Shown here piece after piece: positions 1-37,343 of a stretch of DNA of 44,684 nt (position 1 is the first letter of the stretch; every line of letters begins with the position of its first letter). Below the pieces are notes generated by a model. That model did not search any database, was not told the origin of the DNA, and was given only the letters and a program-made list of their open reading frames with translations. The stretch is from Prolixibacteraceae bacterium. GTDB lineage: Bacteria; Bacteroidota; Bacteroidia; Bacteroidales; Prolixibacteraceae. The position numbers were made by a program, and so were the translations under genes. The stretch lies in assembly GCA_028683385.1 (NCBI GenBank), contig JAQUIJ010000025.1, positions 1-44,684 of the forward strand, in the 5' to 3' direction.

Positions 1-126
1 GTTCAGATCAGCATAAGCGTCTGCAACTTTTCCACCTTTTACCAAAGAAAGTTCTTCAGCAGTTAAAACGTCGAAAGAGAAAGAATCAAAATTTTTTGTT
101 TCGTTGTTCGCAAATAAAGTTTTCAT
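1..126 (-). CDS. Double-glycine leader peptide, copy 1 (cut at window edge)
   Basis: The reverse strand encodes 42 residues starting at the ATG at 126-124. The peptide begins MKTLFANNETKNFDSFSF and continues DVLTAEELSLVKGG, then a 10-residue tail KVADAYADLN. The stop codon lies just outside the window, but the identical copy at 2330-2458 stops directly after this Asn. An acidic or hydrophobic LTAEELSLVKGG segment ending in Gly-Gly is typical of bacteriocin/natural-product precursor leaders, which peptidase-containing ABC transporters cleave after GG. That would leave only a decapeptide, so the product is more like a signal than a pore-former. The 126 coding bases are identical to copy 2. No SD-like site is visible, which is usual in Bacteroidota. 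No transporter or maturation enzyme is present in this window. The coding call is firm because of the GG motif and perfect duplication; the function is inferred. Confidence 0.75.
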   Translation of the reverse strand, partial: MKTLFANNETKNFDSFSFDVLTAEELSLVKGGKVADAYADLN

Positions 127-227
127 TTTTTTGAGTTTTAATGATTAATACTGGTTCCTTAATTATTCTTGTTCGATGGTTTATCCCTGAATCAGGTAAA
201 AGGTAACCCCAGTATTTAGAAAAAAAA
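1..227. repeat. Direct duplication, arm A (peptide gene plus upstream region)
   Basis: Bases 1-227 match 2333-2559 without gaps. The 126 coding bases are identical, and about seven substitutions are confined to the region upstream of the peptide start. The match ends in a run of A after which the two sequences diverge. The arm may extend left of the window. Both arms point the same way, and the 509-aa membrane protein gene lies between them. Confidence 0.95.
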
Positions 228-610
228 TGAAAAAATATTATTTTATTTATTTAAGTTGTTGATATTAAGCTTGTTATTTATTAGAATTATTTTTACAGAT
301 TCTAATAGACACGTAAAGCCCGATAAAAATCGAGCTTATTATGCGGGTTATATGTGATTCAATTAACTTTTAAAACCGGGATGGTTTCGAGCAAGTACCT
401 GGTTTGAACATGAACAATTAAGGAACAAGTACTAATCGAAGGCCTAAGCCGGGCGAACAACATTAAATATTTTTAAGAACTATTAAAAACTGGTTGGGTT
501 TTCGGAAATACCTGGTTTGAACATGAACAATTAAGGAACAAGTATTAATTGAAGACCCGAACAACAATAAGATTTTAAGAACAATTGATAATTAAAGAAC
601 CTGTATTAAT
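144..610. repeat. Cluster of 21-bp motif AATTAARGAACMWGTAYTAAT
   Basis: The 21-base pattern AATTAA(G/A)GAAC followed by (A/C)(A/T)GTA(T/C)TAAT occurs on the forward strand at 416-436, 529-549 and 590-610. It occurs on the reverse strand at 144-164, directly upstream of peptide copy 1, and again at 2476-2496 upstream of peptide copy 2. The two first forward copies sit inside a longer direct repeat (396-444 and 509-557, 49 bases, three mismatches). No ORF follows the forward copies. The motif holds GGAAC, the classical -35 core of ECF sigma promoters, so it may be a binding or promoter element for the sigma factor at 5549-6133; that is inference. This 531-bp gap (127-657) otherwise shows only AT-rich sequence. 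Confidence 0.7.
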
Positions 611-657
611 CATTAAAACATATAAGGAACAAGATTGCGAACGAACTAAGAATATTA

Positions 658-2187
658 TTATTCTGAATATTTTATTTTTCCAAGGATTGATTGAGCTTTT
701 TGCTGGTAAAATCCTTCGTTTTTAGCTATCTTCTTAAATTGTTTGTATGCTTTTTTGTTTTCATTGGTTTGCAGGTAACAAAGTCCGATATACCACTCGG
801 CCTGTTCAGTAAAAAGGTTGTCTTTGTCAATAATTACAGTTTCGTATTCTTTGATTGCATTTTGGTATTTGCCAGTTTCCTGAAGCAAGATACCTGTGTA
901 AAAATGCCCAACCATATTGTTTTGATCTTTGCTTATCACTTCGCTGAAAAGATCCAGGGCTGCATTATAGTCTTGATTTTCAAATTTTTGCAATGCTTTT
1001 GTAAGCGTCTGGTTTGTAGTTAAGTTTGCAGAACGAACGATGCCGGTAGCTTCATATTTGTTGTAGAATTTCTGATAGATATCTTCCTGAGAAGACTGTT
1101 TGGACAAAATTCCGGTAATACCTAATAAAAGTATGATAGATGCAGCAACTGTTGATACGAGGATACGTTTAGCTTTGAATTTTCCAGTAAATGATCGTTC
1201 TGTTTGCTTGCTTGCTGCTATTTCACCTGCAATGTTTTGAAGATTGTTTCTCAACTGCATAACATCAGTTTCCGATAGAGCCAGATCGATATTTTTGATT
1301 AATTCGATCTCATCCATCAATTTCTGATTCGATGTTAATTCAGCTTCAAAAGAAGCAAGTTCTTCGTTGGAAAGCTCACTGTGAATATAGCTTTCGAGTT
1401 CTTCTATGTTTGCAGATGGCTGGAATTCAGATCTTTGTATTTTATTTAAAGAAGCCCTCAGGTTGATGATGTCGCTTTCAGCTCCTGCAAGGTCAATTTC
1501 CCTGATTAGACGTACTTCGCTGGCCAGATCAGAATTGATTGCCAATTCTTCTTCAAATTGAATTTTAAGCTTCGAATCCATCTGGTTATAGATGTAGTCT
1601 TCGACCTCTTCAACTGAATATTGGTGAGCCGGGATGCTTTGAGCAACCTGCATTAAATTAGCCCTTAAATCGAATATATCGTTTTCTTCCAGAGCATTCT
1701 GGATGTCAGCGAACAGTTCTTCTTCGAATGGACTAAATCCTGATTCTTCGTTACTTACAGAATTAGTGTCGAATTGTTCTTTATAGAACTGATGGATATT
1801 TTCCTTTCCGGCAATCTGGTGTTGATAAAGATGAATTTTAGGGAAAGAATGTCCGAAGTTGAAAATATCATCCGGATTGAATGGAGCATTGCTGCTCTTT
1901 TGTGATGAAAATTCTTCAGTTAATCCAAAGCTGAAAGAATCAAAAACGCTAATATTTTCAATAGATGCACTTTCAGTTTGATTTTGAACGATTTGGTTCA
2001 GCGTGTGACGAAGACTGATAATGTCTTGCTCGCACATAGCCTGTTCCACATCCAGATGAAGATTTACTTCTTCATTCAAGTCCGAATCGATCTCCAGTTG
2101 GATTTCAAATTCTTTTAACTCCGGTAGCGTTAATTCCGAGTTAAGGTACTTGTCTGTCTGTTCAAAATATTCTGATTTGCGTATCAT
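658..2187 (-). CDS. Membrane protein with three anti-sigma-like repeats and TPRs
   Basis: 509 aa. I see three related segments of about 60 residues (7-65, 190-250, 260-320) with the pattern Y-hydrophobic-x-x-E-L...F-E-x-x-L...L-x-E-V/I...D-hydrophobic-x-x-L-R. A partial fourth lies at about 160-183. The pattern resembles the N-terminal helical unit of Bacteroidota anti-sigma/zf-HC2-like proteins without Cys or His ligands. One membrane helix follows at about 341-361, preceded by a basic stretch (KFKAKR), so the repeats should be cytoplasmic and the C-terminal TPRs (about 395-490) periplasmic. Residues 82-87 read FDSFSF and are followed by GLTEEFS, a degenerate copy of the neighbouring GG-peptide leader without its Gly-Gly. 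The gene sits between the two peptide copies on the same strand. Likely role: membrane anti-sigma factor for the nearby sigma factor. The fold assignment is moderate and the role is inferred. Confidence 0.8.
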   Translation of the reverse strand: MIRKSEYFEQTDKYLNSELTLPELKEFEIQLEIDSDLNEEVNLHLDVEQAMCEQDIISLRHTLNQIVQNQTESASIENISVFDSFSFGLTEEFSSQKSSNAPFNPDDIFNFGHSFPKIHLYQHQIAGKENIHQFYKEQFDTNSVSNEESGFSPFEEELFADIQNALEENDIFDLRANLMQVAQSIPAHQYSVEEVEDYIYNQMDSKLKIQFEEELAINSDLASEVRLIREIDLAGAESDIINLRASLNKIQRSEFQPSANIEELESYIHSELSNEELASFEAELTSNQKLMDEIELIKNIDLALSETDVMQLRNNLQNIAGEIAASKQTERSFTGKFKAKRILVSTVAASIILLLGITGILSKQSSQEDIYQKFYNKYEATGIVRSANLTTNQTLTKALQKFENQDYNAALDLFSEVISKDQNNMVGHFYTGILLQETGKYQNAIKEYETVIIDKDNLFTEQAEWYIGLCYLQTNENKKAYKQFKKIAKNEGFYQQKAQSILGKIKYSE

Positions 2188-2329
2188 TTTGTTGTTTCTT
2201 AGAGTATTATAAGGCCTGAAATGGCGTTATAAAAGTGTTCAGTCTCCTGCTGTTTTGATCCAAAAGAAAAATTTGGACAACAAGCAATTGAATGATAATA
2301 AAAGAATGAATGATTTTATCTGGAAGAAA

Positions 2330-2458
2330 TTAGTTCAGATCAGCATAAGCGTCTGCAACTTTTCCACCTTTTACCAAAGAAAGTTCTTCAGCAGTTAAAA
2401 CGTCGAAAGAGAAAGAATCAAAATTTTTTGTTTCGTTGTTCGCAAATAAAGTTTTCAT
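2330..2458 (-). CDS. Double-glycine leader peptide, copy 2 (complete)
   Basis: A complete 42-codon ORF plus TAA, identical in protein and DNA to the copy at 1-126. The leader has FDSFSFDVLTAEELSLVKGG at residues 13-32 and a tail of ten residues, KVADAYADLN. It reads away from the TPR-CHAT gene starting at 2623, so 2459-2622 is a shared divergent control region. It lies upstream of, and on the same strand as, the 509-aa membrane protein, 142 bp before its start, with a weak hairpin (2259-2277) between. The GG motif fits a secreted peptide precursor, for example the GG natural-product precursor families known from Bacteroidales. The processing enzyme is not evident here. Confidence 0.82.
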   Translation of the reverse strand: MKTLFANNETKNFDSFSFDVLTAEELSLVKGGKVADAYADLN

Positions 2459-2559
2459 TACTTTTGATTTTAATGATTAATACTGGTTCCTTAATTATTC
2501 TTGTTCGATGGTTTATCCCTGAATCAAGTAAAAGGTAACCCCAGTAATTAGAAAAAAAA
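2333..2559. repeat. Direct duplication, arm B
   Basis: This is the ungapped counterpart of bases 1-227, at a constant offset of 2332. It covers all but the stop codon of peptide copy 2 and about 100 bases upstream of it, including one copy of the 21-bp motif at 2476-2496. Divergence begins after the A-run near 2559. Confidence 0.95.
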
Positions 2560-2622
2560 CTTACAAATTAGAATCGAACTCTTTTTTCAGTAATAATTAT
2601 TTGTAGATAAATCAATGTGAAC

Positions 2623-5487
2623 ATGAAGAAAATATTTTTTATGATCCTTATTTATATATTTTCTTCTTCGGTCTTTGCCTTGAATAAAAGACCTATTGAT
2701 CAGGATAGCCTATTGTCTCTTAAGCTTCAAAAAGATGGGATTGCTGCGGGCAGACTTGGTGATTTTGAGTTAGCACTTGATAATTTCGAGAAATTATATC
2801 GACTACGGCAGAAAATGTATGGACAGAATAGTGTTCGCTTGGCTCCTCCACTTGTTAATATCGGTATTCAGTATAAAAACCTTGGTAATTTTGATAAAGC
2901 AATAGAGTATTATAAACGGGCAGAGACATTGTGCATAAACACTATTGACGGTGATAACTTTTTACTTGGGACTGTTTATGTTAATTTAGGCAATATCTTT
3001 CGATTAGATGGCGATTATAATCAAGCATTAGAGTATCAGAAAAGCGCCTATCGTATTTTGAAAACTGATAGCGTGAAATACTATTCGAGTTTTCAAAAAT
3101 CAAAATATAATATTGCGGAAATTCAATTGAAACTTGGATTTAATAAGGAAGCTATCACGTTTGCTCAATCGAATTTACAAACAATATCTCCAGATTTGAG
3201 ACCACGCTTATTTGATTTAATTGCCCTGTCATATCGTAATGAAGGAGAATATAAATTCTCTGAACAAAACTATTTGAATGCAATTAATAGCTGGATTAAA
3301 TTATATGGTGATGATAACATTGAATTGATATCTGAATATCTCGCTTATTCATCATTACTAATGTCCCAAAAAGAATACGAAAGGGCTCTGCTCTATTCGA
3401 CTAAGGCAAAATCAATTGTTTTAAAGTTTTATGGTGAAAAAAGCACAACATATGCTGAAGTACAATCAAATTTTGGCGATTACTACTATTTGAAAAATTC
3501 TGAAGCTGGACAAATTGATGATTTTCGTACGCAAAGGAAGAAATACTTAAATGAGGCAATTCAATATTATCAAAATTCAGTTGTTTCACTTGTTGATTCT
3601 TTTCAAATCAAAGATCCCTTTGTTGAACCTCCTTTGAAAAATGTAATTTCAGATATCCAATTGGTAGAAGTGTTTAAGAAAAAAGCTCTGTCAATGGAGA
3701 AACTTGCTGATATCTATTTATCGGAGTTCGATTATAAAAATTCGATTAAATATTATAACGCAAGTTTAAACTCACTCTCGAATGCAATAGATCTGATACA
3801 CCGCCTGCAGATTGGATTTGAAAATGAGGACAGTAAATTCTTTTTGTCTCAGAATCAGGAATCAACTTTTTTAGAGGCAATAAATATTTCCTATAAATTG
3901 TATAGTCAGACTAAAAGGTTTGAGTTTATTGAGAAGGCTTTTGAATTTTCTGAAAGAAGTAAGTCCTCCAATTTACTTGCATCAGTTAAAGATGTTAAGG
4001 CTAAAGAATTTGGAGGAATTCCAGATTCATTGATGAAAAAGGAGAACATTTTAAAAGGTAATATCGCGAGTTATAACTCTTTGTTATTTGAGGAGAATCA
4101 TTCTGAAAAGCCAGATTCTCAAAAGGTTAATTTGTATTCGGCAAAAATATTTAAGTATAATGAAGAATATAATCGATTGATCGATTCGTTTGAGAAGTTA
4201 TTTCCCCAGTATTATGCGCTAAAATATGAAAATAAAGTTGTTGGCATTAAGGAGATACAATCTAAAATAAGTAACCGTCAATCATTTTTGGAATACTTTG
4301 TTAATGAGCCGGAAAGTAAAACCGGTAAAGGAGAAATTTATCGCTTTTTAATCACGAAGGATTCAGTAAATTTTTCAAAGGAGAGTATCGATTATTCGTT
4401 TGTAAATAACATTCAGTCAATTCATGATTTCCTGGTTAATCCCAATTACCTTTATACCAAGAAGAAGGATTTTGTGGAATATTCGGTTGCTGCTTATGGA
4501 TTGTATGAAAAACTAATAAAACCTGTTGCAAAAAAGTTGAATGGTACAAGTCTGACTATTATCCCACACGATAAACTTTCATACATTCCATTTGATGCAT
4601 TATTAACGCAGTTGCCTGATACAAGTGTAATGAACTTTAGAAATTTGAATTATTTGGTTCGTGATTATGCGATTAACTATAGCTATTCGGCAACTCTCTT
4701 GTATGATTATTTTGATCAGAAAAAAAGAAGTTCAAAAAGCCTTCTGGTATTTTCTCCGAAATATGATTCGCAGGAATCAAGAATCGATCCGGAGACTGCG
4801 GTTTCTTACTTTCTGAGCCCTTTGCCAGGCGCCAAAGACGAAGTAAAAGGAATATCAAAGTTTGTTTCATCAGTTTCATTTGTTGATGAGCAAGCACAGG
4901 AAAATACCTTCAAAGAAAAAGCTTCAGAATTTGATATTTTGCATTTGGCCATGCATACGATCATCAATGATAGTGTGCCGATGCTATCGAAATTGGTTTT
5001 TTCGAAACCGGATCAAAAGTCAACGGACGATGGGTATTTGAATGCCTACGAAATTTATAATATGAAACTCAATGCTCGTTTGGCTGTTTTGAGCGCGTGC
5101 GAAACTGGCACTGGTAAACTTCAAAGAGGTGAAGGAGTTATGAGTATGGCTCGCGGGTTTATTTATGCTGGATGTCCTTCTATAGTAATGACTCTATGGC
5201 AAGTTGAAGATAAATCGGGAGTGAAGATAATGGAGGACTTTTATAAATATTTGTCGAAGGGGAAACGAAAAGATGTTGCGCTTCGGATGGCAAAACTAAA
5301 TCATCTGAATAACTCTGATCCTTTAACTGCCCATCCTCATTTTTGGCTCGGATATGTTAATATTGGCAATCCGGAACCTTTATATACAAGTAAGGATGTT
5401 TATTTTGTAATTTTTCTTTTTGTCACTCTTCTCTTGCTCTTGGCTGATTGGCAATTTCGAAGGAGAAGACTAAAGCGAAGAAATTAG
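2623..5487 (+). CDS. Secreted TPR-CHAT protein (caspase-like protease candidate)
   Basis: 954 aa from the ATG at 2623; a GTG two codons upstream at 2617 would also be in frame, but the ATG gives a standard MKK signal peptide (hydrophobic to about residue 20, then Ala). TPR-like helical repeats fill roughly residues 25-450. The C-terminal third is a CHAT domain (about 620-915): LHLAMH supplies the catalytic His (778) and LSACETG the catalytic Cys (826), followed by the usual GEGVMSMARGFIYAGC stretch. Both catalytic residues are present. A hydrophobic helix (about 926-944) and a basic tail (RRRRLKRRN) end the protein, so TPR and CHAT should face the periplasm, anchored at the C-terminus. CHAT is a clan CD fold; many members are proteases. 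The sigma-factor gene converges 61 bp downstream. The substrate is unknown; the neighbouring membrane TPR protein is an obvious candidate. Confidence 0.92.
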   Translation: MKKIFFMILIYIFSSSVFALNKRPIDQDSLLSLKLQKDGIAAGRLGDFELALDNFEKLYRLRQKMYGQNSVRLAPPLVNIGIQYKNLGNFDKAIEYYKRAETLCINTIDGDNFLLGTVYVNLGNIFRLDGDYNQALEYQKSAYRILKTDSVKYYSSFQKSKYNIAEIQLKLGFNKEAITFAQSNLQTISPDLRPRLFDLIALSYRNEGEYKFSEQNYLNAINSWIKLYGDDNIELISEYLAYSSLLMSQKEYERALLYSTKAKSIVLKFYGEKSTTYAEVQSNFGDYYYLKNSEAGQIDDFRTQRKKYLNEAIQYYQNSVVSLVDSFQIKDPFVEPPLKNVISDIQLVEVFKKKALSMEKLADIYLSEFDYKNSIKYYNASLNSLSNAIDLIHRLQIGFENEDSKFFLSQNQESTFLEAINISYKLYSQTKRFEFIEKAFEFSERSKSSNLLASVKDVKAKEFGGIPDSLMKKENILKGNIASYNSLLFEENHSEKPDSQKVNLYSAKIFKYNEEYNRLIDSFEKLFPQYYALKYENKVVGIKEIQSKISNRQSFLEYFVNEPESKTGKGEIYRFLITKDSVNFSKESIDYSFVNNIQSIHDFLVNPNYLYTKKKDFVEYSVAAYGLYEKLIKPVAKKLNGTSLTIIPHDKLSYIPFDALLTQLPDTSVMNFRNLNYLVRDYAINYSYSATLLYDYFDQKKRSSKSLLVFSPKYDSQESRIDPETAVSYFLSPLPGAKDEVKGISKFVSSVSFVDEQAQENTFKEKASEFDILHLAMHTIINDSVPMLSKLVFSKPDQKSTDDGYLNAYEIYNMKLNARLAVLSACETGTGKLQRGEGVMSMARGFIYAGCPSIVMTLWQVEDKSGVKIMEDFYKYLSKGKRKDVALRMAKLNHLNNSDPLTAHPHFWLGYVNIGNPEPLYTSKDVYFVIFLFVTLLLLLADWQFRRRRLKRRN

Positions 5488-5548
5488 GTCTTTTGATGTA
5501 ATTCTGTGTATTTAAATTTGATCAATGTACTTAGCTGGCAAGATCTAA

Positions 5549-6133
5549 TTAATTATCTCCACTTAAAATTTTATTGTATTCAAGGTCTTGCTTAATGCTT
5601 TTAATTAAGTATTCTTTACATTTAAACTTACGTTTCTTTGCATATTTCTCACTCTTGAATCCCATAATTTGAGCAATATTCTTGAGTGGAACTTTGTCGA
5701 AATACAACTGCAATATTTTCTGGCAATCTTTTCCTAAATTAATAAAATGCTTTTGGTATAATCTGTAGCGTTCGTTTAGATCAGCCACTTTTTCTAACCC
5801 GTCGTCATATAAATCTTCATGGTATTCATGATTGTCTTTAATCTTTTCTTTTTCAATTTTTCTTTTCTCTAGTTGTTTAAGCCAAAGGAAACGACAAACT
5901 GAGTATAGATAAGTTTCAAAAGTGCAATCCAAAACCAACTCATTGGCTTTTAGTTTTCGGAAAATAATAATAATTGCTTCTTGAAATATATCATTAGCAT
6001 CATCATCATCTCCACTGTTTTTTTTGATGAAAAAATTAATCTTGGAATAGAAATTCTTATAGATATATTGTAACACAATAGTATCATTTCTTCGAATCCC
6101 ATTTAACAGGTCAAGGTTTGAATAATCGATCAT
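5549..6133 (-). CDS. ECF-type RNA polymerase sigma-70 factor
   Basis: 194 aa. Region 2 spans about residues 18-90, with an acidic DDDDANDIFQEAIIIIFRKL core and the TYLYSVCRFLWLKQLEKRK helix that contacts the -10 element. A charged linker (about 90-120) follows. Region 4 (about 125-180) has the helix-turn-helix LKNIAQIMGFKSEKYAKKRK. There is no region 1 or 3, as in ECF factors. The arrangement with a TPR-CHAT gene and a membrane protein with anti-sigma-like repeats suggests that this factor is their output. It converges with the CHAT gene and has its own upstream region (6134-6300). Its targets are unknown; the 21-bp motif containing GGAAC upstream of both peptide genes is a candidate site. 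Confidence 0.9.
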   Translation of the reverse strand: MIDYSNLDLLNGIRRNDTIVLQYIYKNFYSKINFFIKKNSGDDDDANDIFQEAIIIIFRKLKANELVLDCTFETYLYSVCRFLWLKQLEKRKIEKEKIKDNHEYHEDLYDDGLEKVADLNERYRLYQKHFINLGKDCQKILQLYFDKVPLKNIAQIMGFKSEKYAKKRKFKCKEYLIKSIKQDLEYNKILSGDN

Positions 6134-11693: not shown

Positions 11694-14615
11694 TTAACTG
11701 AATAAACTCATGATTTCTTCTTCATTAATTCCGTCGATCGGATTATTCGAGCTGATGAACTTTTCGGCCAGTGCTGATTTCCTGGATTTCAAAATCTGGA
11801 TTTTTTCTTCGATCGAATCTTCAGTAATAAACCGGTAAACAAATACTTTTTTATCCTGTCCGATGCGATGGGCGCGATTAATGGCCTGATTTTCGGCTGC
11901 CGGATTCCACCACGGATCGATGATGAAAACATAGTCGGCAGATGTGAGGTTCAGTCCGACGCCACCGGCTTTTAGCGAAATCAGGAAAATATGGTTGTCC
12001 GGGTCTTCCTGAAACTGGCGGATTACTTCCTGGCGGTTCATGGTTTTCCCGGTCAGCATCGAATATTTCCAGTTTTTCGATTCAATTTTGGCCTGAAGCA
12101 ATTCGAGGTGTTTTACAAACGAAGAGAATATCAGTACCTTATGGTTTTCGGCCAACAGGTTTTTCAGGTTTCTGTATATTTCGTTGAATTTACCCGATTC
12201 CATCTCGTTTTCTTTGGAGACTAGCGATGGATGATTGGCCAATTGTCGAAGTTTGGTCAACCCCTGAAGAACCACCAATGCCGACTTTTTGAGCCCGTTC
12301 GATTCAATATTTTTCAGAATGGCATTCCGGATGGCCGATTTTTCAGTATCGTAAATTTCCTTTTGATCCTCAGTCATTTCGCAATACCTGATTTGCTCGG
12401 TCATGGCCGGCAAGTCTTTGGCAACTTCCTCTTTTTTGCGCCTCAATACAAATGGATGAATCAGTTTTTGCAGTTTTTTCTGCTGTTCTTCGTCATTCTT
12501 TTTCTCAATCGGGGTTATAAATTCACGCTTGAAGTAGGGCAAACTTCCGAGCAATCCCTTGTTCAGGAAATTGAGTTGCGACCACAAGTCGGACAGCGAG
12601 TTTTCAATTGGAGTTCCCGTAATCACCAGTTTGTGTTTTGACTTTATTTCAAGGATACTTTTATAGGTTTTCGACGACGAATTTTTGATGTTCTGGCTCT
12701 CGTCCAAAATCAAGTACCAGAAATCGAACGAACGAAGCATTTCGGCATCGTTTCTCATCGTTCCGTAAGTGGTTAGGATGACGTCGTAATAGCCAATGGT
12801 TTGCGCCATTTTGTTCGATTTATTCCGGAGGCCGCCAACATGTTTATAAACCTTGAGCGAAGGGGCAAATTTCCGGATTTCATTTTCCCAATTGTGAATC
12901 AGCGAAGTTGGCATAACAATCAACGAGGCAGGTTGCAATGAAGCGCCTGTTTCAGGCTGATCGAAAAGCGAAAATTGCAATTGGTTGCCTTTCTCCGGAA
13001 CAACGATCTGCGATTTGGCTTTCTTGATTTTAAGCAGAAGGGTCAACGCCTGCAAAGTTTTTCCCAAACCCATATCATCGGCCAGACAGCCGCCCAATTG
13101 GTTTTCGTACAAATGGTACATCCACGAAAAACCTTCTTTCTGGTAGTTTCTCAGCTCGGCTTTTAAGTCATTCGGAAGTTCCACCGGATTGCCGAAGCTC
13201 GTAGTTATTTCTTCCAGTTTGTCGAAGTAATTCCGGTCAATTCCTTTTACGTTATCCTGAAGAAGCTGAAAATGATGCTTCTTGAGTTTCAGAATATTGC
13301 CATCGGTTTTGGCAAATGGGAATATTTCGCGATACGACGAAAACCATTCGAGTGGCAAAACTGCAATTTCACCCGATGGAAGTTCAAATTCGCGAATGCC
13401 ATTTAAAATGTGTTTCCGTAACCTGATAAACGGGATTTGGAACGAACCAAATTTAACGATGGCATAAATGTCGAACCAGTCTTCGTCGCTTTTAATTTGA
13501 ATATCGAGGATTTGAGTACCGGTATAATATTTTTTACTGAGTTTGTTTTGCTGAATCAGAAACCCTTGTTTTTCCAGTGTTTCCCGGTTTTTCGATAACC
13601 ACAACACGGGGCTGTAATAATTATCGGTTTCATCATCATCTTTTGGGTTCCAAAAACCATTTTTGTATTTCAAATCCAGTTTCTTCAGGAATCCAAGCTG
13701 CTCTTCCTCCCATTCATGGTTACGCACAAATTTTCGGAAGGAATAGTTGTCATGTTTCATTTCAAGGCTGACAAATACATCTGATACGGCATCGGCCAGA
13801 TATAAACTATTGTCGTATCTGAATTTAACGATGATGGTTGGTCGCAAGGCCAAATCCTGCTCAAGCGAAAGAATGGTTTTTCGTGGCGGACTGCTTTCGA
13901 TAATTTCAAAACCGGTAGCTTTTACTTCCGATTCCTTGATGGTATTCAGCACAAATGACTGGTAATACTTGTCTTCGGCTTGCCGTGGAATCCAAACCGA
14001 TTCTTTCGTCAGAAAAGGAACGATCTTTTTTCCTGAAAGCTTATTGAAAATATAGAGTTTGTTCAGGTACACAAAGCAGCAGGGTAGGGTAGTGACCATT
14101 CGGAGCGTTTTGTGAAAAATCTCCACCGGATTGCCTTCATGACTGATTTTTAGTCGGTATCTCGTACCATTTTCATTTCTGTAAAAATGAAACACACTTT
14201 CCGAAAAACTCTGATTGATTTGGATAACATCTTCGTCGTATAGGCTCGAATATTTGGCCTGCTTGGAAAACAGTCTGGTTTTGCCTTTCATCAACAGCAA
14301 GATACAACGGTACATGTATTTGTCGATGAAAGGACTGATGTGGTTCTGAAACAGATCAGTATCCAGGTTCTGGAAAAAGTTTGGCTCTTTCTTTTTCGAG
14401 AATTTCTTTACCAGGTTTTCATCGCTATAATTTTCAATCAACTTGAGCAGTTCCAGTTCCGATTCATTTAATTCGACTTCACCACTTTTATAGTCGCGCA
14501 ACTTAACTGTCTTTTTTACAGTGAAGTACGAACGTTCTTCTTCAATTAGCATGGGAACAAAAATGTTCCCAACTGCACGATGTTCGGTCAAAGCGATAAT
14601 AAATTCCTGAGCCAA
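11694..14615 (-). CDS. SNF2-family DEAD/DEAH-box helicase
   Basis: 973 aa. The N-terminal half (1-480) is family-specific and not recognised in detail. The ATPase core follows: Walker A DDMGLGKT at about 513-520, the Walker B equivalent LILDESQN (DESQ at 638-641), motif III VITGTPIENSLSDLWSQLNF (about 664-683), and the C-terminal helicase lobe with SLKAGGVGLNLTSADYVFI and the arginine-finger motif RAHRIGQ (914-920). All Swi2/Snf2 motifs appear intact. These enzymes translocate on double-stranded DNA and remodel nucleoprotein complexes. Nothing nearby links it to a defence system or a methylase, so it is probably a free-standing chromosomal gene. Confidence 0.92.
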   Translation of the reverse strand: MAQEFIIALTEHRAVGNIFVPMLIEEERSYFTVKKTVKLRDYKSGEVELNESELELLKLIENYSDENLVKKFSKKKEPNFFQNLDTDLFQNHISPFIDKYMYRCILLLMKGKTRLFSKQAKYSSLYDEDVIQINQSFSESVFHFYRNENGTRYRLKISHEGNPVEIFHKTLRMVTTLPCCFVYLNKLYIFNKLSGKKIVPFLTKESVWIPRQAEDKYYQSFVLNTIKESEVKATGFEIIESSPPRKTILSLEQDLALRPTIIVKFRYDNSLYLADAVSDVFVSLEMKHDNYSFRKFVRNHEWEEEQLGFLKKLDLKYKNGFWNPKDDDETDNYYSPVLWLSKNRETLEKQGFLIQQNKLSKKYYTGTQILDIQIKSDEDWFDIYAIVKFGSFQIPFIRLRKHILNGIREFELPSGEIAVLPLEWFSSYREIFPFAKTDGNILKLKKHHFQLLQDNVKGIDRNYFDKLEEITTSFGNPVELPNDLKAELRNYQKEGFSWMYHLYENQLGGCLADDMGLGKTLQALTLLLKIKKAKSQIVVPEKGNQLQFSLFDQPETGASLQPASLIVMPTSLIHNWENEIRKFAPSLKVYKHVGGLRNKSNKMAQTIGYYDVILTTYGTMRNDAEMLRSFDFWYLILDESQNIKNSSSKTYKSILEIKSKHKLVITGTPIENSLSDLWSQLNFLNKGLLGSLPYFKREFITPIEKKNDEEQQKKLQKLIHPFVLRRKKEEVAKDLPAMTEQIRYCEMTEDQKEIYDTEKSAIRNAILKNIESNGLKKSALVVLQGLTKLRQLANHPSLVSKENEMESGKFNEIYRNLKNLLAENHKVLIFSSFVKHLELLQAKIESKNWKYSMLTGKTMNRQEVIRQFQEDPDNHIFLISLKAGGVGLNLTSADYVFIIDPWWNPAAENQAINRAHRIGQDKKVFVYRFITEDSIEEKIQILKSRKSALAEKFISSNNPIDGINEEEIMSLFS

Positions 14616-25853: not shown

Positions 25854-27044
25854 ATGAAGAAGATCTGGATCCTACCTGTGGCTTTTTTGATGGTATTTCA
25901 GTCGTGTTCTGACCAGCCTAAAAAGAAAGAGATAAATGGTTTGGAGATGGCTGTGAAAATGGCCGATTCGGAAATTAAACAATTTCCTGAGCCATGGACT
26001 GTCGATTTCAACCCTCAACCAGTCTGGAATTATACCCAGGGTTTGATCGCCTATTCCATGATTAACGTATGGAAGGCCAACGGCAATGAAACGTATTATA
26101 ATTATGCCAAAACGTATGCTGATAAATTTATCGATCAGGATGGAGTTATCAGTCAGTATAAATTGGAGGATTATAATATTGATGCAGTAAACTCCGGAAA
26201 GTTTCTTTTCGATCTGTACGAAAAAACAAAAGACGAAAGGTATCTGAAAGCAATCAATCAATTGCGTGATCAGCTCAAAACACATCCACGAACTTCGGAA
26301 GGTGGTTTCTGGCACAAAAAACGTTACCCCAGTCAAATGTGGCTAGATGGATTGTACATGGGCGCTCCATTTTATGCACAGTATGCTGTACATTTCAACC
26401 AACCTGATCTTCTTGACGATGTGGTTAAACAGTTTGTTCTAATCCATAAATATACCTACAATCCCCAAACAGGGCTAAATTACCACGGCTGGGACGAAAG
26501 CAAAGAGCAAAAGTGGGCCGATCCAAAAACTGGCTGTTCTCCTAATTATTGGGGTAGGGCCGAAGGTTGGTATGCAATGGCATTGGTTGATGTGCTCGAT
26601 TATCTTCCTCAGGATTATTCCGGACGTGTTCAAATTCTTGAAATTCTGAATCAGGTGGTTGCAGGCATCAAAAAATATCAGGATCCAAAAACTGGCTTAT
26701 GGTATCAGGTTTTGGATCAAGGCAATCGCGAAGGAAATTACCTCGAAGCTACAGGTTCTTCCATGTTCGCTTATGCTTTGCTGAAAGCTACCCGGAAAGG
26801 CTACATCAGTAATGATTACAAGGCTGTAGCGTTGAAAGCCTACTCAGGAATATTGGAAAACCTGATCAAAAATAACAATGATGGAACGATTAGTCTGACC
26901 AAATGCTGCTCGGTGGCAGGTTTGGGTGGAAACCCATACCGCGATGGTTCTTACGAATACTACATTAAAGAACCAGTGCGCGATAACGACCCCAAAGGAG
27001 TAGGGCCGTTTATTTTGGCTTCGCTTGAATTCAGTATGAAATAG
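25854..27044 (+). CDS. GH88/GH105 unsaturated uronyl hydrolase, lipoprotein
   Basis: 396 aa with a lipoprotein signal (Cys18 in FQSCSD). The family fold is a six-helix double barrel. WLDGLYMGAPFYAQY (from 163) contains the likely catalytic Asp165, and WGRAEGWYAMALVDVLDYLP (from 233) is the other hallmark of unsaturated rhamnogalacturonyl hydrolases such as YteR. The C-terminal GNPYRDGSYEYYIKEP.R segment is typical too. It removes the delta-4,5-unsaturated uronic acid that lyases leave at the non-reducing end of pectin oligosaccharides. It precedes susC by 159 bp and is probably co-regulated by the HTCS at 20802-24905. Confidence 0.93.
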   Translation: MKKIWILPVAFLMVFQSCSDQPKKKEINGLEMAVKMADSEIKQFPEPWTVDFNPQPVWNYTQGLIAYSMINVWKANGNETYYNYAKTYADKFIDQDGVISQYKLEDYNIDAVNSGKFLFDLYEKTKDERYLKAINQLRDQLKTHPRTSEGGFWHKKRYPSQMWLDGLYMGAPFYAQYAVHFNQPDLLDDVVKQFVLIHKYTYNPQTGLNYHGWDESKEQKWADPKTGCSPNYWGRAEGWYAMALVDVLDYLPQDYSGRVQILEILNQVVAGIKKYQDPKTGLWYQVLDQGNREGNYLEATGSSMFAYALLKATRKGYISNDYKAVALKAYSGILENLIKNNNDGTISLTKCCSVAGLGGNPYRDGSYEYYIKEPVRDNDPKGVGPFILASLEFSMK

Positions 27045-27203
27045 CCATTTCAGATTTGAAATTAAACACAAATAATATCGGACTATTCCATTCGCCGGAA
27101 TTTTATATCAGGAACAAAAACAGATTCGACACTTGAAGAACCCTAAATTGGGTATGAATTAAATGAAATAAGTAAAAGCAATACACAAACTTAACAATTA
27201 TCT

Positions 27204-30200
27204 ATGATGAAAATGAAGCAAAGTTTTCTTGGTAAAGTTTGCCTGTTAGCACTGTTCGTAATTTTCACAAGCGCACAATTGTACGCTCAGAAAGTTAGCG
27301 GTGTGGTGGTTGATGAAACAAACACTCCATTACCAGGCGTAAATGTTGTAGTTAAAGGAACTACAAATGGTGTGATAACCGATTTTGATGGAAAGTACTC
27401 CATCAATCCAGCTAACATCCAAAAGGACATTCTCTCTTTCTCTTTTATTGGTATGGAAACCAAAGAAATTAGTATCAATGGACAGAAAGAGATTAATGTG
27501 CAAATGAAAAGCAACACACTTGAATTGGATGAGGTTGTTGCTGTTGGTTACGGGACAGTTAAAAAGCGCGACCTGACCGGCTCGGTTTCTTCAGTAAAAT
27601 CGGAAGAGATTACAAAAACTAGCAGCAGCAACGCGATGCAGGCCATGCAGGCTCGGGTTCCGGGACTTGACATTCAGCAGTCAAGCGGACAGGCAGGTGC
27701 AGGCATAAGCATAAATCTGCGCGGTAATCGTTCAATCTCGGCCTCAAATAGCCCTTTAATCTTGGTTGATGGGATCGAATATGGTTCAACTCTTGATGTT
27801 AACCCATCCGATATTGAATCTATGGAAGTTTTAAAAGATGCTTCTTCCACAGCAATTTATGGTACACGCGGTGCCAATGGTGTTATCATCATTACTACAA
27901 AACGCGGGAAATCGGGTTCAACGAAAGTTAATTTCAATGCTTATGTATCGTCGAACTCTCCAACCAACGTACCACAAGTTATGTACGGCGATAAAGAAGT
28001 ACAACGTTTGATCGACAAAGCCAACTATCAGGCTGATGCTGCTTCAGGTAATTGGGGAACCAGTAACCTTACTCCTCAGCAGGTTTTAACTGAAAGCTTG
28101 GAAGATTTTACTGAAATCGGGATTTATCAGGATAAATCGTACACCAACTGGGCTGATAATATCCTCCAGAACGGATTGACTAAAAATTATGAACTTTCAG
28201 TTTCAGGAGGAAATGAGAAAACGACCTTCAATCTTTCGTTAGGAACCATGTTTGATGAAGGTTTGATGAAAGATGATAAACAGAGCCGCTACAATGTAAG
28301 AACCAATTTAGATCATAAAATCAGCAATGTTTTCAAGGCTGGAACCAGTTTAATGTTTACTTATAAGGATAACGATTCCCGCAATGCAAGTGTATTTAGC
28401 CAGGCTCTTAAAATGACATCCATTACACATCCTTACACTGCGGAAGGTGTCTTGATTGCAACGCCTAACCCACGTTATGCTGCACACTGTAATCCATTAC
28501 TCGATGAGATTGATGGTGCCTACAAAAACAATGTTGAATCTACTCGTTTCTTTGGTAATACATACCTTGAAGTTTCTCCTATGAAAAACATGAACTTCAA
28601 GACTATATTTGCACTCGACCGCTCAAATACTCGTTCAGGCATCTATCAGGATTACCAAAGCGTTAGTCGTTACCAATCTCCCGGAACCAGTTTTATTTCT
28701 TCGGAATATGAAAATAAAACGGGTTTAACCTGGGAAAATACATTGAATTACAATACAAACTTTGGCGGAACAAAACATGAGATTACTGCTTTGTTGGGAC
28801 AAAGTATGAAACAGAGCGTTTACGAAGAATCGATTACCTCTGGTGATGCCGGACGTGAGCATTATTACACCAGTTTATTTTACGATTTGTCGAAAATTGC
28901 ATCAGCAACAACAACCAGTCAATTTATTAAATCGTCGATGTTGTCGTATTTTGGTCGTTTGAACTATAAGTACAATGAGAAATACTTACTTACAGCATCT
29001 GTACGTGCCGATGGATCTTCAACATTGGCCAAAGGTCACCAATGGGGCTATTTCCCATCTGTAGCTTTAGCATGGAGAGTTAACGAAGAATCATTTCTGA
29101 AAGATACAGATTGGCTAAGTAACTTAAAGGTTCGCACATCGTGGGGTATTTCGGGTAATGCTGCCGTTGGCGCATATAGTACTTTAACATCACTAAGTAC
29201 AACTCCTGTTTATTATTATTTAGGAGCAACCAGTATTGCCGGTAATATTCCAAGTACATTAGGAAACAAAGACCTTACCTGGGAAAAGACTGCATCTTAT
29301 AACTTTGGTCTTGATTTTGGGATAATTGATAACCGTGTTTCTGGTACAATTGACTATTTTATTAGTAATACTTCGGATTTGCTTTATCGTAAAAGTGCTC
29401 CGCCTTCATCAGTATATCCAAGCGTTTTGGCAAATATTGGCGAAACTAAGGGTCATGGTCTTGAAGTTTCGTTGAATACTTTGGTTGCAAAAACAAAAGA
29501 TTTCTCGTGGGATATAAACTGGACTTATACCACCTACAAAGATGAGATTACTAAATTGTCGGAAGGTGTGACAACAAATATCAGTGGAACTACAGGTCAG
29601 ATTGTAGGTCAGGCCGTTTCGATTTATTACGATTTTGAAGCGAACGGCAACTGGAATGTTGGTGAATATGCAACCTATAAAGCCGATTGGGAAGCCCGTC
29701 ATCCTGGAGAGACTATTGGTTATGTAACGGCTTACGGAGCTCCGGGAACAATGAAAATAGTTGATCGTAACGATGACGGCATGTTAACTGATGATGACAA
29801 GATTGTTTATAACCGCTCGCCTAAGCATATTTTTGGTATGAATAATTCAATGTCCTACAAAAATTTCTCATTGTCGGTACTTGTTTATGCCCGTATTGGA
29901 GGTTATATCTCGTACGACATGAATTCACAATTGAACTATGAATCGGCAAACTGGGGAAATCTTGATTATTGGACACCAACCAACGTTAATGCGAAATTTC
30001 CGAGCCCGGGAGCTCCAAGTACAACATTTGGAAGCTACGGTTCTGCTTTGAAATATGAAAAGGCCGATTACCTGAAAATTAAAGACATAACCCTTGGTTA
30101 TAACTTGCCAAAAAGTGCGATCAGCCATATTGGACTTAGCAACGTGAAAGTTTATGGATCGATGAAGAATTATTTTACATTCAGTAAAATTGATAATTAC

Positions 30201-30275
30201 GATCCTGAGCGTGGTGGAGCTATTTCCTTCCCATTGTCAAAACAGTTAGTTGTAGGTGTTAATGTTGAATTCTAA
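27204..30275 (+). CDS. SusC/RagA-family TonB-linked outer-membrane transporter
   Basis: 1023 aa. Signal peptide to about residue 28 (LYAQ). A carboxypeptidase-D regulatory-like beta-sandwich (about 30-115) has VSGVVVDETNTPLPGVNVVV. The plug follows with VGYGTVKKRDLTGSVSSV, RVPGLDIQ, GNRSISASNSPLILVDG and DASSTAIYGTRGANGVIIIT (to about 235). The rest is the 22-strand barrel, ending in VGVNVEF with a terminal Phe as expected. It has no N-terminal STN domain, so it is not a transducer type. Together with the SusD lipoprotein 19 bp downstream it imports oligosaccharides, here predicted to be pectin fragments. Confidence 0.97.
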   Translation: MMKMKQSFLGKVCLLALFVIFTSAQLYAQKVSGVVVDETNTPLPGVNVVVKGTTNGVITDFDGKYSINPANIQKDILSFSFIGMETKEISINGQKEINVQMKSNTLELDEVVAVGYGTVKKRDLTGSVSSVKSEEITKTSSSNAMQAMQARVPGLDIQQSSGQAGAGISINLRGNRSISASNSPLILVDGIEYGSTLDVNPSDIESMEVLKDASSTAIYGTRGANGVIIITTKRGKSGSTKVNFNAYVSSNSPTNVPQVMYGDKEVQRLIDKANYQADAASGNWGTSNLTPQQVLTESLEDFTEIGIYQDKSYTNWADNILQNGLTKNYELSVSGGNEKTTFNLSLGTMFDEGLMKDDKQSRYNVRTNLDHKISNVFKAGTSLMFTYKDNDSRNASVFSQALKMTSITHPYTAEGVLIATPNPRYAAHCNPLLDEIDGAYKNNVESTRFFGNTYLEVSPMKNMNFKTIFALDRSNTRSGIYQDYQSVSRYQSPGTSFISSEYENKTGLTWENTLNYNTNFGGTKHEITALLGQSMKQSVYEESITSGDAGREHYYTSLFYDLSKIASATTTSQFIKSSMLSYFGRLNYKYNEKYLLTASVRADGSSTLAKGHQWGYFPSVALAWRVNEESFLKDTDWLSNLKVRTSWGISGNAAVGAYSTLTSLSTTPVYYYLGATSIAGNIPSTLGNKDLTWEKTASYNFGLDFGIIDNRVSGTIDYFISNTSDLLYRKSAPPSSVYPSVLANIGETKGHGLEVSLNTLVAKTKDFSWDINWTYTTYKDEITKLSEGVTTNISGTTGQIVGQAVSIYYDFEANGNWNVGEYATYKADWEARHPGETIGYVTAYGAPGTMKIVDRNDDGMLTDDDKIVYNRSPKHIFGMNNSMSYKNFSLSVLVYARIGGYISYDMNSQLNYESANWGNLDYWTPTNVNAKFPSPGAPSTTFGSYGSALKYEKADYLKIKDITLGYNLPKSAISHIGLSNVKVYGSMKNYFTFSKIDNYDPERGGAISFPLSKQLVVGVNVEF

Positions 30276-30294
30276 TTACTAATAAGAAATAACG

Positions 30295-32310
30295 ATGAAA
30301 AAGAAAATATATATCCTAATAGCTGCCATGGCGCTCATGCTTGGTACGCCCTCCTGCTCAGATTATCTGGATGAAGATAATAAGGTAGGTGCAACAGCCG
30401 ATCTTACTTATTCTACAGCGACGGGTATTCAGGGGCTGGTCTCTTCTTGTTACAGTTTTTCCAGAGGCTGGTATGGTAAAGAAGCTGGTCTTGGCCTGTC
30501 GGAAATGGGTACAGACTTATTCAATTACGGTTACGATAATAAACAAAAATCACTAAACTCATATAACCTTACAGCCGTAAGTTTGGATGACAATTCAAGT
30601 GATAATGCTTGTCTGGATCAATATTGGGAATTATTCTATTGTGCTGTTGATGTTTGCAATACAGCGTTGAAATACGTTCCGTTAAATACTGTTATTAATG
30701 AAACGTTACGCAGTCAGTACATGGGAGAGGCATATTTTATGCGTGCTTTTTACTACCTGCACATGGTTAATATTTGGGGCGCAATTCCATATAACTCAGA
30801 ACCACCAAGCTCAGTTGTGACTGATGCAACCCGTGTTCCTGAAGAAGTTATTTACAGCAATATTCTTTCTGATCTCGACAAATCAATTGCTGATTTTAAA
30901 ACGGCCAATTATATGACTAAAGCTGATGGTCGCGCCAGTTATTGGGCTGCCCGTGCGCTGAAAGCTCGTACCTTGCTCTATGCCGCATCATGGTTAGGAA
31001 AAAATAGTATCGTAACAAATCCTGACTATAATGGTAAAGATTTGTATGCTCTTGCAAAGGCTGAATCAGAAGCAGTTATTGGAAGTGGAATAGCTTCCTT
31101 TTACGATAATTATGCCGACACATGGTCGATGAAAAATGAAGATGCTTCAAAAAACAAAGAATCGATTTTTGGTGTGACTTATTCTCCTGATTTATCAACT
31201 AATGTAAACTGCATCCCTTATCGTTATCGTACAAATGCAAGTGGCTCCGCATTGTCGTACAATGGGTTAATTACCCGTACCGGATACAGTCGCGGTGGTA
31301 ACGCTATGCTGCTAATGTTTGTAGGTATGTGGAACAATGGCGCTTCTGACCTTGGAAACAACGGGAAAGAAACTTTCGTTCGTGCTTTAGGTGAGTCAAC
31401 CTATTATATTACAAATATTGTTACTGGCGAGAAAGTTTATGTAGCCGAAAAATATTCACCATATGGCCGCGGATTTACCCGCTACCTTCCATCTGTTTAT
31501 CTTTGGAAATTGCTTGACAAATACCGTGCAACCGACCAGCGAACTAATGCAACTATACAGGAAGCTTATACGATTGCTCCAGGATTGGAAAAAAGTTCTA
31601 AAAACTATCCTTCCATTCAGGATACGGCCATCTATTATTGTCCGCTCGACGGTAATTCGGCTGCCGGTAAAGCTAAACAAGCTTGGGCTAAAGGTCGTTA
31701 CCGCATACAGTTCTTGGCAAATGGCGACATTCCAGTCTTCACATCAACCGACCCAGCAACTGCAAAACCAACAGAGGCTGCAAAAGCAAAATCTGATGTT
31801 TATGGCGATGCCCGTTACAATTCGTACAAAATTGGTGGATGGTGCTCTTATCCAACTATTAAGAAATTTCAAGACGATGTGTTTGATCCGGCTTATCCAA
31901 CCAACGACATTTCTAGTCGCGATGCGATTGTATTACGTTTGTCCGAAATGTATCTGGTTAAAGCTGAGGCTGAATTGGGTACCGGATCAAATGGTGCGGC
32001 TCTTGCTACATTGAATGAATTGCGTGCAAAACGTGCTATTGCCGGAAAAGATAATTCATTGTCAGGAACTGTTGACATCAATACAATTCTTGATGAACGC
32101 GCAATCGAATTATGTGGAGAACAACAACGTTGGTTCGACCTTAAACGTACAAAAACTCTTGTTAGTCGTGTGAAAGCATACAATGCCCAGGGAGCTGCAA
32201 GTATTAAGGATATTCACTATTACCGTCCGATTCCTCAGGCTCAGTTAGATGCTGTTACGAATAAAAGTACAACTGCTGGTTCAGGTTTCTGGCAGAATGA
32301 TGGGTATTAA
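30295..32310 (+). CDS. SusD/RagB-family surface glycan-binding lipoprotein
   Basis: 671 aa. Lipoprotein signal with Cys21 in GTPSCSDYLDE. The SusD fold is a TPR-like helical platform: ARALKARTLLYAASW and YMGEAYFMRAFYYLHMVNIWG are characteristic, and the C-terminal region holds ELRAKRA and ELCGEQQRWFDLKRTKTL near the end. It forms the lid on the SusC barrel. It is co-transcribed with susC. Two hairpins follow the stop (32321-32351, 32395-32450), so the downstream enzymes are likely made from less, or separately initiated, transcript. Confidence 0.96.
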   Translation: MKKKIYILIAAMALMLGTPSCSDYLDEDNKVGATADLTYSTATGIQGLVSSCYSFSRGWYGKEAGLGLSEMGTDLFNYGYDNKQKSLNSYNLTAVSLDDNSSDNACLDQYWELFYCAVDVCNTALKYVPLNTVINETLRSQYMGEAYFMRAFYYLHMVNIWGAIPYNSEPPSSVVTDATRVPEEVIYSNILSDLDKSIADFKTANYMTKADGRASYWAARALKARTLLYAASWLGKNSIVTNPDYNGKDLYALAKAESEAVIGSGIASFYDNYADTWSMKNEDASKNKESIFGVTYSPDLSTNVNCIPYRYRTNASGSALSYNGLITRTGYSRGGNAMLLMFVGMWNNGASDLGNNGKETFVRALGESTYYITNIVTGEKVYVAEKYSPYGRGFTRYLPSVYLWKLLDKYRATDQRTNATIQEAYTIAPGLEKSSKNYPSIQDTAIYYCPLDGNSAAGKAKQAWAKGRYRIQFLANGDIPVFTSTDPATAKPTEAAKAKSDVYGDARYNSYKIGGWCSYPTIKKFQDDVFDPAYPTNDISSRDAIVLRLSEMYLVKAEAELGTGSNGAALATLNELRAKRAIAGKDNSLSGTVDINTILDERAIELCGEQQRWFDLKRTKTLVSRVKAYNAQGAASIKDIHYYRPIPQAQLDAVTNKSTTAGSGFWQNDGY

Positions 32311-32320
32311 ACTTATAAAT

Positions 32321-32351
32321 GCTAGCTTCTTTTAAAAGTAAGCTAGCTTTT
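32321..32351 (+). terminator. Terminator after susD, hairpin 1
   Basis: An 8-bp stem GCTAGCTT (32321-32328) and AAGCTAGC (32340-32347), followed by TTTTATT. It lies 10 bp after the susD stop codon. Confidence 0.75.
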
Positions 32352-32394
32352 ATTGTTCCTTGAAAATACGAAATTATACCCTGTACTAATTAAG

Positions 32395-32450
32395 GGCACT
32401 GGAAGCTTTTGTGGAAAAAACAGAAGCGTCCCAGTGCCTTTATTTGGTTT
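32395..32450 (+). terminator. Terminator or processing hairpin after susD, hairpin 2
   Basis: GGCACTGG at 32395-32402 pairs with CCAGTGCC at 32431-32438, and an inner GCTTTTGT/ACAGAAGC pairing extends the stem with one mismatch. TTTATTTGG follows. Tandem hairpins after susCD often reduce read-through into enzyme genes. Confidence 0.7.
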
Positions 32451-32501
32451 TAAGCCTATAATAAAATTTTGTGTCATAATATGTTTGATTAATTTAGAGG
32501 C

Positions 32502-33314: not shown

Positions 33315-33363
33315 TCTTAAAACTGATAATTGAGTATTACGCTAAATAGATTAATTGTATTCG

Positions 33364-34764: not shown

Positions 34765-34804
34765 AGTCTTAAATATTCATTCATAACCAACAATTTGTAC
34801 AGAA

Positions 34805-36238: not shown

Positions 36239-36242
36239 ATAC

Positions 36243-37220: not shown

Positions 37221-37269
37221 TAATGAAAGGTATGAAGCTTTACATTTAGTGATCAGCAAAACATGTTCC

Positions 37270-37297
37270 GAGTTACGGGTTATAGAACCCGCAACTC
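37270..37297. repeat. Hairpin upstream of the second GH28 gene
   Basis: GAGTTACGGGTT (37270-37281) pairs with AACCCGCAACTC (37286-37297), with one mismatch and a 4-nt loop. It lies 50 bp after the CE8 stop and 46 bp before the GH28 start at 37344. The lack of a T-run argues for a mobile palindrome or mRNA processing element rather than a terminator. Confidence 0.6.
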
Positions 37298-37343
37298 AGT
37301 ATCTCACAATCCGCAACGATTAAGAAGTAATAAATCAAATAAT

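Follow-up and report, generated by a model that had tools for sequence, protein, structure and literature searches.

The window analysed here, a stretch of 44,684 nucleotides of contig JAQUIJ010000025.1 from a Prolixibacteraceae bacterium (GCA_028683385.1), begins at the start of its contig, and its positions 1..6133 hold a cluster of genes for a TPR-CHAT protein, a membrane anti-sigma-like protein, an extracytoplasmic function (ECF) sigma factor and double-glycine (GG) peptides. The interpretation that we prefer, and hold to be moderately probable, is that this module is an ECF sigma/transmembrane anti-sigma switch controlled by the periplasmic TPR-CHAT protein, with the exported GG peptide as a feedback signal. 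By analogy it may be read as a sigma switch like that of the Myxococcus anti-sigma factor DdvA, here split over two proteins and joined to peptide feedback, and together the components look like a self-amplifying signalling circuit. An initial annotation of this DNA had described four component types side by side, and all four were located in the window as follows.

1..126, minus strand: GG peptide, second copy, with the identical 42 aa; head of the next tandem unit, its stop lying beyond the contig start
181..209, minus strand: ECF-type promoter element of the second unit (pattern match)
658..2187, minus strand: membrane anti-sigma-like protein, 509 aa, with a single transmembrane helix, repeats and TPRs
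673..1020, minus strand: its C-terminal TPR domain, residues about 390-505, predicted periplasmic
1123..1179, minus strand: its single transmembrane helix, residues 337-355, with basic residues N-terminal of the helix (hydropathy scan)
1222..1404, minus strand: anti-sigma-type repeat 3, residues 262-322 (profile-profile comparison)
1423..1611, minus strand: anti-sigma-type repeat 2, residues 193-255 (profile-profile comparison)
1612..1740, minus strand: half repeat, residues about 150-192 (profile-profile comparison)
1984..2187, minus strand: anti-sigma-type repeat 1, residues 1-68 (profile-profile comparison)
2330..2458, minus strand: GG peptide, first copy; leader up to ...VKGG, then KVADAYADLN
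2513..2541, minus strand: ECF-type promoter element, GGGTTACCTTTT-N11-GGATAA, before the peptide and the membrane protein (pattern match)
2617..5487, plus strand: TPR-CHAT protein (caspase-like), 956 aa from GTG, 954 from the likely start ATG at 2623
4279..5382, plus strand: CHAT domain with margins, residues 555-922; His780 at 4954-4956, Cys828 at 5098-5100
5395..5451, plus strand: C-terminal transmembrane helix, residues 927-945, with a basic tail (hydropathy scan)
5549..6133, minus strand: ECF sigma factor, 194 aa (NCBIfam sigma70-ECF, E 4.5e-13, residues 21-176)

Comparison of sequences across genomes establishes the module, the position of the sigma factor beside the anti-sigma-like protein, a shared promoter element and an association with exporters. 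The sigma factor, the CHAT protein and the membrane protein were searched for in 61 genomes, comprising the bacterium's own genome and others of its genus, family and order. By hand count, both sigma and CHAT genes are present in 31 of the 37 family genomes; they lie on one contig at a distance of at most 3 kb in 25 of these 31 and on different contigs in the other 6. The bacterium's own genome contains a single match to the window's CHAT protein at E <= 1e-5. Given this single match and the close spacing in the family genomes, the linkage of sigma and CHAT genes is above chance. Additionally, named genomes were scanned with the sigma alignment, the best 80 of 495 matches being kept, and the sigma gene was recovered in 77 of the 80. 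The membrane protein is present in 54 of these 77 sigma loci (directly 3' of the sigma gene in 43) and CHAT in 55; where at least 6.5 kb was available on both sides, 28 of 36 loci contain both partners. All three module genes occur together in Marinifilum, Lentimicrobium, a Saprospiraceae bacterium, Spirosoma and Roseivirga, among others. Co-occurrence across Bacteroidota had been set beforehand as a check on the initial annotation, and the genes are indeed linked elsewhere; on this comparison the module is conserved well beyond the genus, across many Bacteroidota. In the window itself the sigma-membrane protein pair is split, and in the window's genus and in genomes G024 and G036 the membrane protein sits after the peptide, not after the sigma factor.

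The family profile of the sigma factor matches SigW, SigH and SigE across about residues 3-181. In its putative inhibitor, the membrane protein, the three full repeats match each other and the N-terminal repeat of 21 short relatives at 99.4-99.8% probability, and the half repeat is matched at 97% (profile-profile comparison of blocks of alignment A2). The short relatives thus reveal the basic plan of these proteins, which is one anti-sigma-type domain, one transmembrane helix and TPRs. The one hydrophobic helix (residues 337-355) is preceded by basic residues, which predicts cytoplasmic repeats and periplasmic TPRs, in agreement with the single-pass topology given in the initial annotation. 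The same annotation called the repeats anti-sigma-like, and this is borne out by comparison only. NCBIfam NF052375 matches the membrane protein at E 1.4e-5, under that model's cut-off, zf-HC2 matches 2 of 31 relatives, and the homology to described anti-sigma families is weak. When the cytoplasmic part was compared by sequence with solved structures, five matches were obtained (best E 0.42), none of them informative, and a fold search of the inhibitor model returned almost only TPR and designed repeat proteins, with no solved anti-sigma domain listed. The repeat part is weakly modelled, and its fold is therefore left unassigned. Elsewhere in the same genome, another ECF-like sigma gene was seen by eye together with a protein that has two similar anti-sigma-type N-terminal repeats (L139, 1-1112); thus, inhibitors of this sort may have duplicated repeats outside this module as well.

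The CHAT protein matches the Pfam CHAT domain at E 2e-59. Its dyad, H780/C828 when counted from GTG, is invariant in 25 of 25 aligned sequences; C828 corresponds to C826 from ATG, the residue named in the initial annotation as part of an intact Cys-His dyad. Among 58 CHAT homologues, the His-Cys dyad pattern was seen in 53; contig ends truncate four of the five that lack it. The N-terminus of the protein is hydrophobic at residues 5-23, and a hydropathy scan placed a hydrophobic stretch at the C-terminus in 19 of 19 CHAT sequences and at the N-terminus in 16 of 19. The protein is predicted to face the periplasm, anchored in the membrane. The top solved matches of the CHAT model are Csx29 of type III-E CRISPR, separase and DdvA; Csx29 is the best of these, so the likeness to Csx29 drawn in the initial annotation holds, as a likeness only. 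The TPR half of the model also resembles the pheromone receptors Rap and NprR, which is a likeness of fold only, TPR repeats scoring highly against many TPR proteins. Searched against solved structures as a single sequence, the CHAT domain had no match, and with a profile DdvA was matched only at E 1.1.

The peptides in the window are the heads of tandem units, each made of a peptide and a membrane protein, with a period of 2332 bp; positions 1-236 and 2333-2568 are 95% identical. The two GG peptides had been reported as identical, and they do share 42 identical residues, but the second copy is incomplete and runs off the contig start. In the one-contig genome G012 the unit occurs twice, with membrane-protein genes identical at 1530 of 1530 bases, and G013 and G014 have the same doubled unit, also identical at 1530 of 1530. 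The membrane proteins of G012, G013 and G014 are 96, 58 and 62% identical, respectively, to that of the window. A fragment of the membrane-protein gene stands at a contig start in G003, G004, G009, G015 and G019, as it does in the window. That the copies are identical within species and divergent between species suggests gene conversion or repeated recent duplication.

Of 57 loci, 29 have an open reading frame with a GG-leader pattern in the 900 bp upstream of CHAT; without near-identical loci the count is 28 of 55, as against 10 of 446 other genes, a control set that was not de-duplicated. A looser peptide search, which was not applied to the controls, added four loci that are excluded from these counts. 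Most of the predicted mature peptides are short, at about 10-35 aa, and are acidic and polar, as in KVADAYADLN, KSEDVYADLN and ISRDMDLYVEDLE; those of L061-L063 are not acidic. The window peptide scores 14.2 against the bacteriocin-leader model TIGR01847, whose cut-off of 15.7 is exceeded by 2 of 10 relatives' peptides scanned. A likeness of the GG leader to the FDSFSFGLTEEF segment of the membrane protein (mimicry) was considered and dropped, local alignment against 300 shuffled peptides having given z values of -0.9 to 2.4 in nine species. Downstream of the membrane-protein gene are three inverted copies, on the plus strand, of the 23-nt leader element of the peptide mRNA (TTAAGGAACCAGTATTAATCATT; 418-440, 531-553 and 592-614). 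A script search of nine species found two or three such copies each in six (the window, G012, G014, G006, G010 and G020) and none in L023, L026 and L027; they may possibly serve pairing between the 5' and 3' parts of the transcript, or be decayed inverted leaders.

Upstream regions share a promoter element, GGGTTACCTTTT-N11-GGAATAA, which stands before the peptides and, in genomes where the inhibitor gene follows that of sigma, before the sigma operon. The pattern has four matches in the bacterium's own genome (5.9 Mb), compared with none for the reversed control; two are in the window, one is before the gene of a 73-aa protein and one is before a GH108 lysozyme gene. With a slightly looser pattern there were 140 matches in the 61 genomes and 8 in the control, and 34 of 37 family genomes had a match, compared with 1 of 24 others. 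Across named loci, 19 of 21 GG peptides have the -35 half within 260 nt upstream (peptide starts being set by hand) and 27 of 76 sigma genes have it within 150 nt, as against 17 of 521 other genes within 260 nt. Because the element stands before it, the peptide fits the regulon of the sigma factor, which supports the feedback by the peptide that had been suggested at the outset. When the upstream regions of sigma genes and peptides were compared without guidance by their best-shared 26-mer, only 2 of 13 loci did better than six shuffles. The -35 variants GGGTWACC, GTATTACC and GGGTAACG require three changes when placed on a tree of 39 sigma sequences, and one of these changes is due to L090, a fused frame on a very long branch; the mean for shuffled variants was 13.4, and 0 of 200 shuffles were as low. 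Such clustering would be as expected if this sigma factor reads the variants, and common descent alone clusters them too.

Downstream of 84 promoter matches that were examined are shared gene families of 12 (the 73-aa protein), 9 (a secreted protein of about 180 aa), 6 (GH108) and 4 members, and five pairs. The most constant target is the 73-aa protein, with the -35 half in 20 of 21 rows at or above 40% identity and in 0 of 8 rows below. Its copy in the bacterium's own genome (L136, 5307-5528, contig C2) is without a Pfam match, and most copies read by eye end in FHESQ. Nine genomes have the gene of the secreted protein of about 180 aa behind the element (L138, 894-1433; L183, L194, L201, L202, L206, L209, L240 and L241); the protein has a CarboxypepD_reg match below the cut-off. 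The GH108 gene (L137, 4389-4925, contig C37; PF05838, E 1.3e-21) has the element about 70 nt upstream, and the element is in a similar place in seven other genomes, eight in all. It was rejected as a core target because only 8 of the 20 rows with at least 75% identity have the element, two of these 20 rows being pieces of one gene. The gene after it (L137, 3807-4301) matches a holin model below threshold (GTA_holin_3TM, E 0.055), five of the other genomes read have a similarly sized gene behind GH108, and no prophage genes were seen by eye in the 9 kb read at L137.

C39 peptidase exporters are encoded in 35 of the 37 family genomes. C39 and/or HlyD genes lie beside module genes in seven loci (L035, L037, L039, L080, L092, L109 and L112, the last with HlyD only), and in L039 the gene order is peptide, C39 exporter, HlyD, whilst in L035 and L037 the exporter genes come after those of the sigma factor and the membrane protein. 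In three loci a gene with a type IX sorting domain replaces the GG peptide next to CHAT (L087, 7368-8603; L097, 7436-8644; L089, 6250-7467), and the -35 box before the sigma gene in these loci is GTATTACC. A PADLOC scan of the three module proteins, four window neighbours and six of eight left neighbours in G012 found no Cas genes beyond chance-level Cas2 matches (E 0.03-0.06) to the membrane protein, in agreement with the CRISPR-free locus of the initial annotation. Further along the window are an SNF2-family helicase (11694-14615, minus strand), in which PADLOC matches to DpdE and ZorD fall in the helicase part and look generic, and pectin utilisation genes for GH88, pectinesterase and GH28 (25854-39032, plus strand).

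In the mechanism that we propose, the 509-aa protein would keep the sigma factor at the membrane through its cytoplasmic anti-sigma-type repeats, and the CHAT protein would reside in the periplasm, anchored via its predicted C-terminal helix. A C39 transporter would export the matured peptide, which is most likely the cue, or a modulator, of the TPR superhelix of CHAT. On this cue CHAT would cut or displace the periplasmic TPR domain of the inhibitor, intramembrane proteolysis might follow, and the sigma factor would be freed. Once free, it would read the element before the peptide-inhibitor unit (or before its own operon), before the 73-aa gene and, in some species, before the lysozyme gene. 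The peptide would make the loop a positive one, and the inhibitor, made from the same unit, would limit it. Sigma binding, cleavage of the inhibitor by CHAT, the peptide as ligand and the direction of the signal are the steps that we infer.

With this proposal, a caspase/separase-type protein gains named partners, a candidate ligand, a promoter and targets in a signalling module outside CRISPR, and the role of periplasmic CHAT proteins in Bacteroidota can thereby be put to direct test. Should the ligand prove to be the peptide, the module would represent a novel kind of peptide signalling in Gram-negative bacteria and might connect DdvA, Csx29 and split sigma switches in evolution. A more far-reaching version, which we rate as doubtful, is a Gram-negative autoinducing peptide circuit in which the exported peptide is a pheromone read in the periplasm by the TPRs of the protease, the anti-sigma factor is cut and the sigma factor amplifies the peptide and the inhibitor, together with the lysozyme and perhaps the holin in some species. 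If true, the receptor for a signal between bacterial cells would be a caspase-like protease.

A number of observations weigh against the proposed peptide-controlled switch. A recognisable GG peptide is found at only about half of the CHAT loci (28 of 55), and the loci lacking it carry a secreted protein of about 400 aa beside CHAT, or neither. The single C39 gene of the bacterium's own genome is away from the module, on contig C23, and in L035 and L037 the C39 gene lies beside the sigma factor and the membrane protein, with no CHAT in the stretch read. The -35 half is missing before 49 of 76 sigma genes, and the rule behind this count is post hoc for some of the loci counted, because the element was first read by eye from part of the upstream regions and then counted by rule. 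The tree test is no independent proof, since related species share promoters and sigma types by descent. Of the 84 promoter matches examined, 43 are without a shared downstream gene family. Furthermore, promoter matches and module genes do not always coincide: G021 (99% complete) and G017 (84%) have promoter matches without module genes in their assemblies, G017 having a weak sigma match only, and G029 has the module without a promoter match.

The CHAT protein might act without cleavage, as a structural sensor that binds the TPR domain of the inhibitor and changes its shape, which would make the pair a split equivalent of DdvA. Both the structural likeness to DdvA and the predicted periplasmic location of the inhibitor TPRs and the CHAT TPRs are consistent with such a sensor; however, the dyad pattern is retained in 53 of 58 homologues, with contig ends accounting for four of the five misses, which argues for catalysis, and we consider a non-cleaving CHAT rather unlikely. 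It is conceivable, if somewhat improbable, that the GG peptide is a bacteriocin-like effector and not a signal, the sigma factor and CHAT controlling the timing of its production. The leader resembles bacteriocin models (above the TIGR01847 cut-off in 2 of 10 relatives scanned) and the peptide has a sigma-type promoter, yet the predicted mature parts, mostly short, acidic and polar (L061-L063 excepted as not acidic), and the placement of the gene 5' of CHAT speak against an effector.

Two further explanations leave the switch itself aside or give it another output. CHAT could be a protease that matures exported peptides or type IX surface proteins and is tied to the sigma factor by co-regulation alone. 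In keeping with this idea, the neighbour of CHAT is a GG peptide in some loci and a secreted protein in others, with Por_Secre_tail (type IX sorting) in all three of the proteins of about 400 aa that were tested; these three also match a CarboxypepD_reg-like domain below the cut-off. However, CHAT also lies beside the sigma factor and the membrane protein where neither neighbour was found (L072 and L079), and DdvA unites the same fold with an anti-sigma factor; we think a role in maturation unlikely. A circuit for defence or altruistic lysis, on the lines of DdvS/DdvA or type III-E CRISPR, in which sensing of damage would lead to lysozyme, perhaps holin, and lysis, is more improbable still. 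Such a circuit would account for the element 5' of the GH108 gene in eight genomes and for the possible holin next to it, with its similar-sized counterparts in five other genomes, but the element is at only 8 of 20 close GH108 rows, the holin match is under its cut-off, and among the scanned proteins no defence family stands beside the module, bar the generic helicase matches of the SNF2 protein.

The open full-text literature that was searched contained no description of the module and no paper pairing a CHAT domain with double-glycine, and a large ECF classification could contain this sigma group. The RRNPP pheromone receptors, which include Rap and NprR, are cytoplasmic proteins of Firmicutes; the TPR half of CHAT that resembles them in fold is here joined to CHAT and predicted to be periplasmic. 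Like Craspase, the Csx29/Csx30/CASP-sigma system of type III-E CRISPR, the module combines a TPR-CHAT protein, a candidate inhibitor and an ECF sigma factor. According to passages of PMC10028731, Csx29 cuts Csx30, which inhibits CASP-sigma, and a parallel to proteolysed anti-sigma factors of the RseA/DegS type is drawn there. Craspase is RNA-guided and works with Cas7-11, whereas this module is predicted to be membrane-anchored, with a transmembrane helix in its inhibitor, and we rejected its assignment to type III-E CRISPR, no Cas7-11 or Csx30 being among the neighbours scanned. With RseA/DegS and other proteolysed anti-sigma factors the module would share a single-pass anti-sigma(-like) protein and a protease acting outside the cytoplasm, although the candidate protease here is the CHAT protein encoded beside the inhibitor, not DegS.

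In DdvA, an anti-sigma domain, a transmembrane helix, TPRs and a CHAT domain are present in one chain. In the DdvS/DdvA pair of Myxococcus (PDB 8rot, 8rw5), DdvS is the ECF sigma factor and DdvA the transmembrane anti-sigma factor, part of which is TPR-CHAT-like. In contrast, the anti-sigma-like protein and the TPR-CHAT protein are two genes in this module, the inhibitor has several repeats and TPRs of its own, and a GG peptide and a shared promoter are added. Because the functions are split over two proteins and the sequence likeness is marginal (E 1.1), the module was rejected as an orthologue of DdvA. DdvA may be a closer parallel to this module than Csx29/Csx30.
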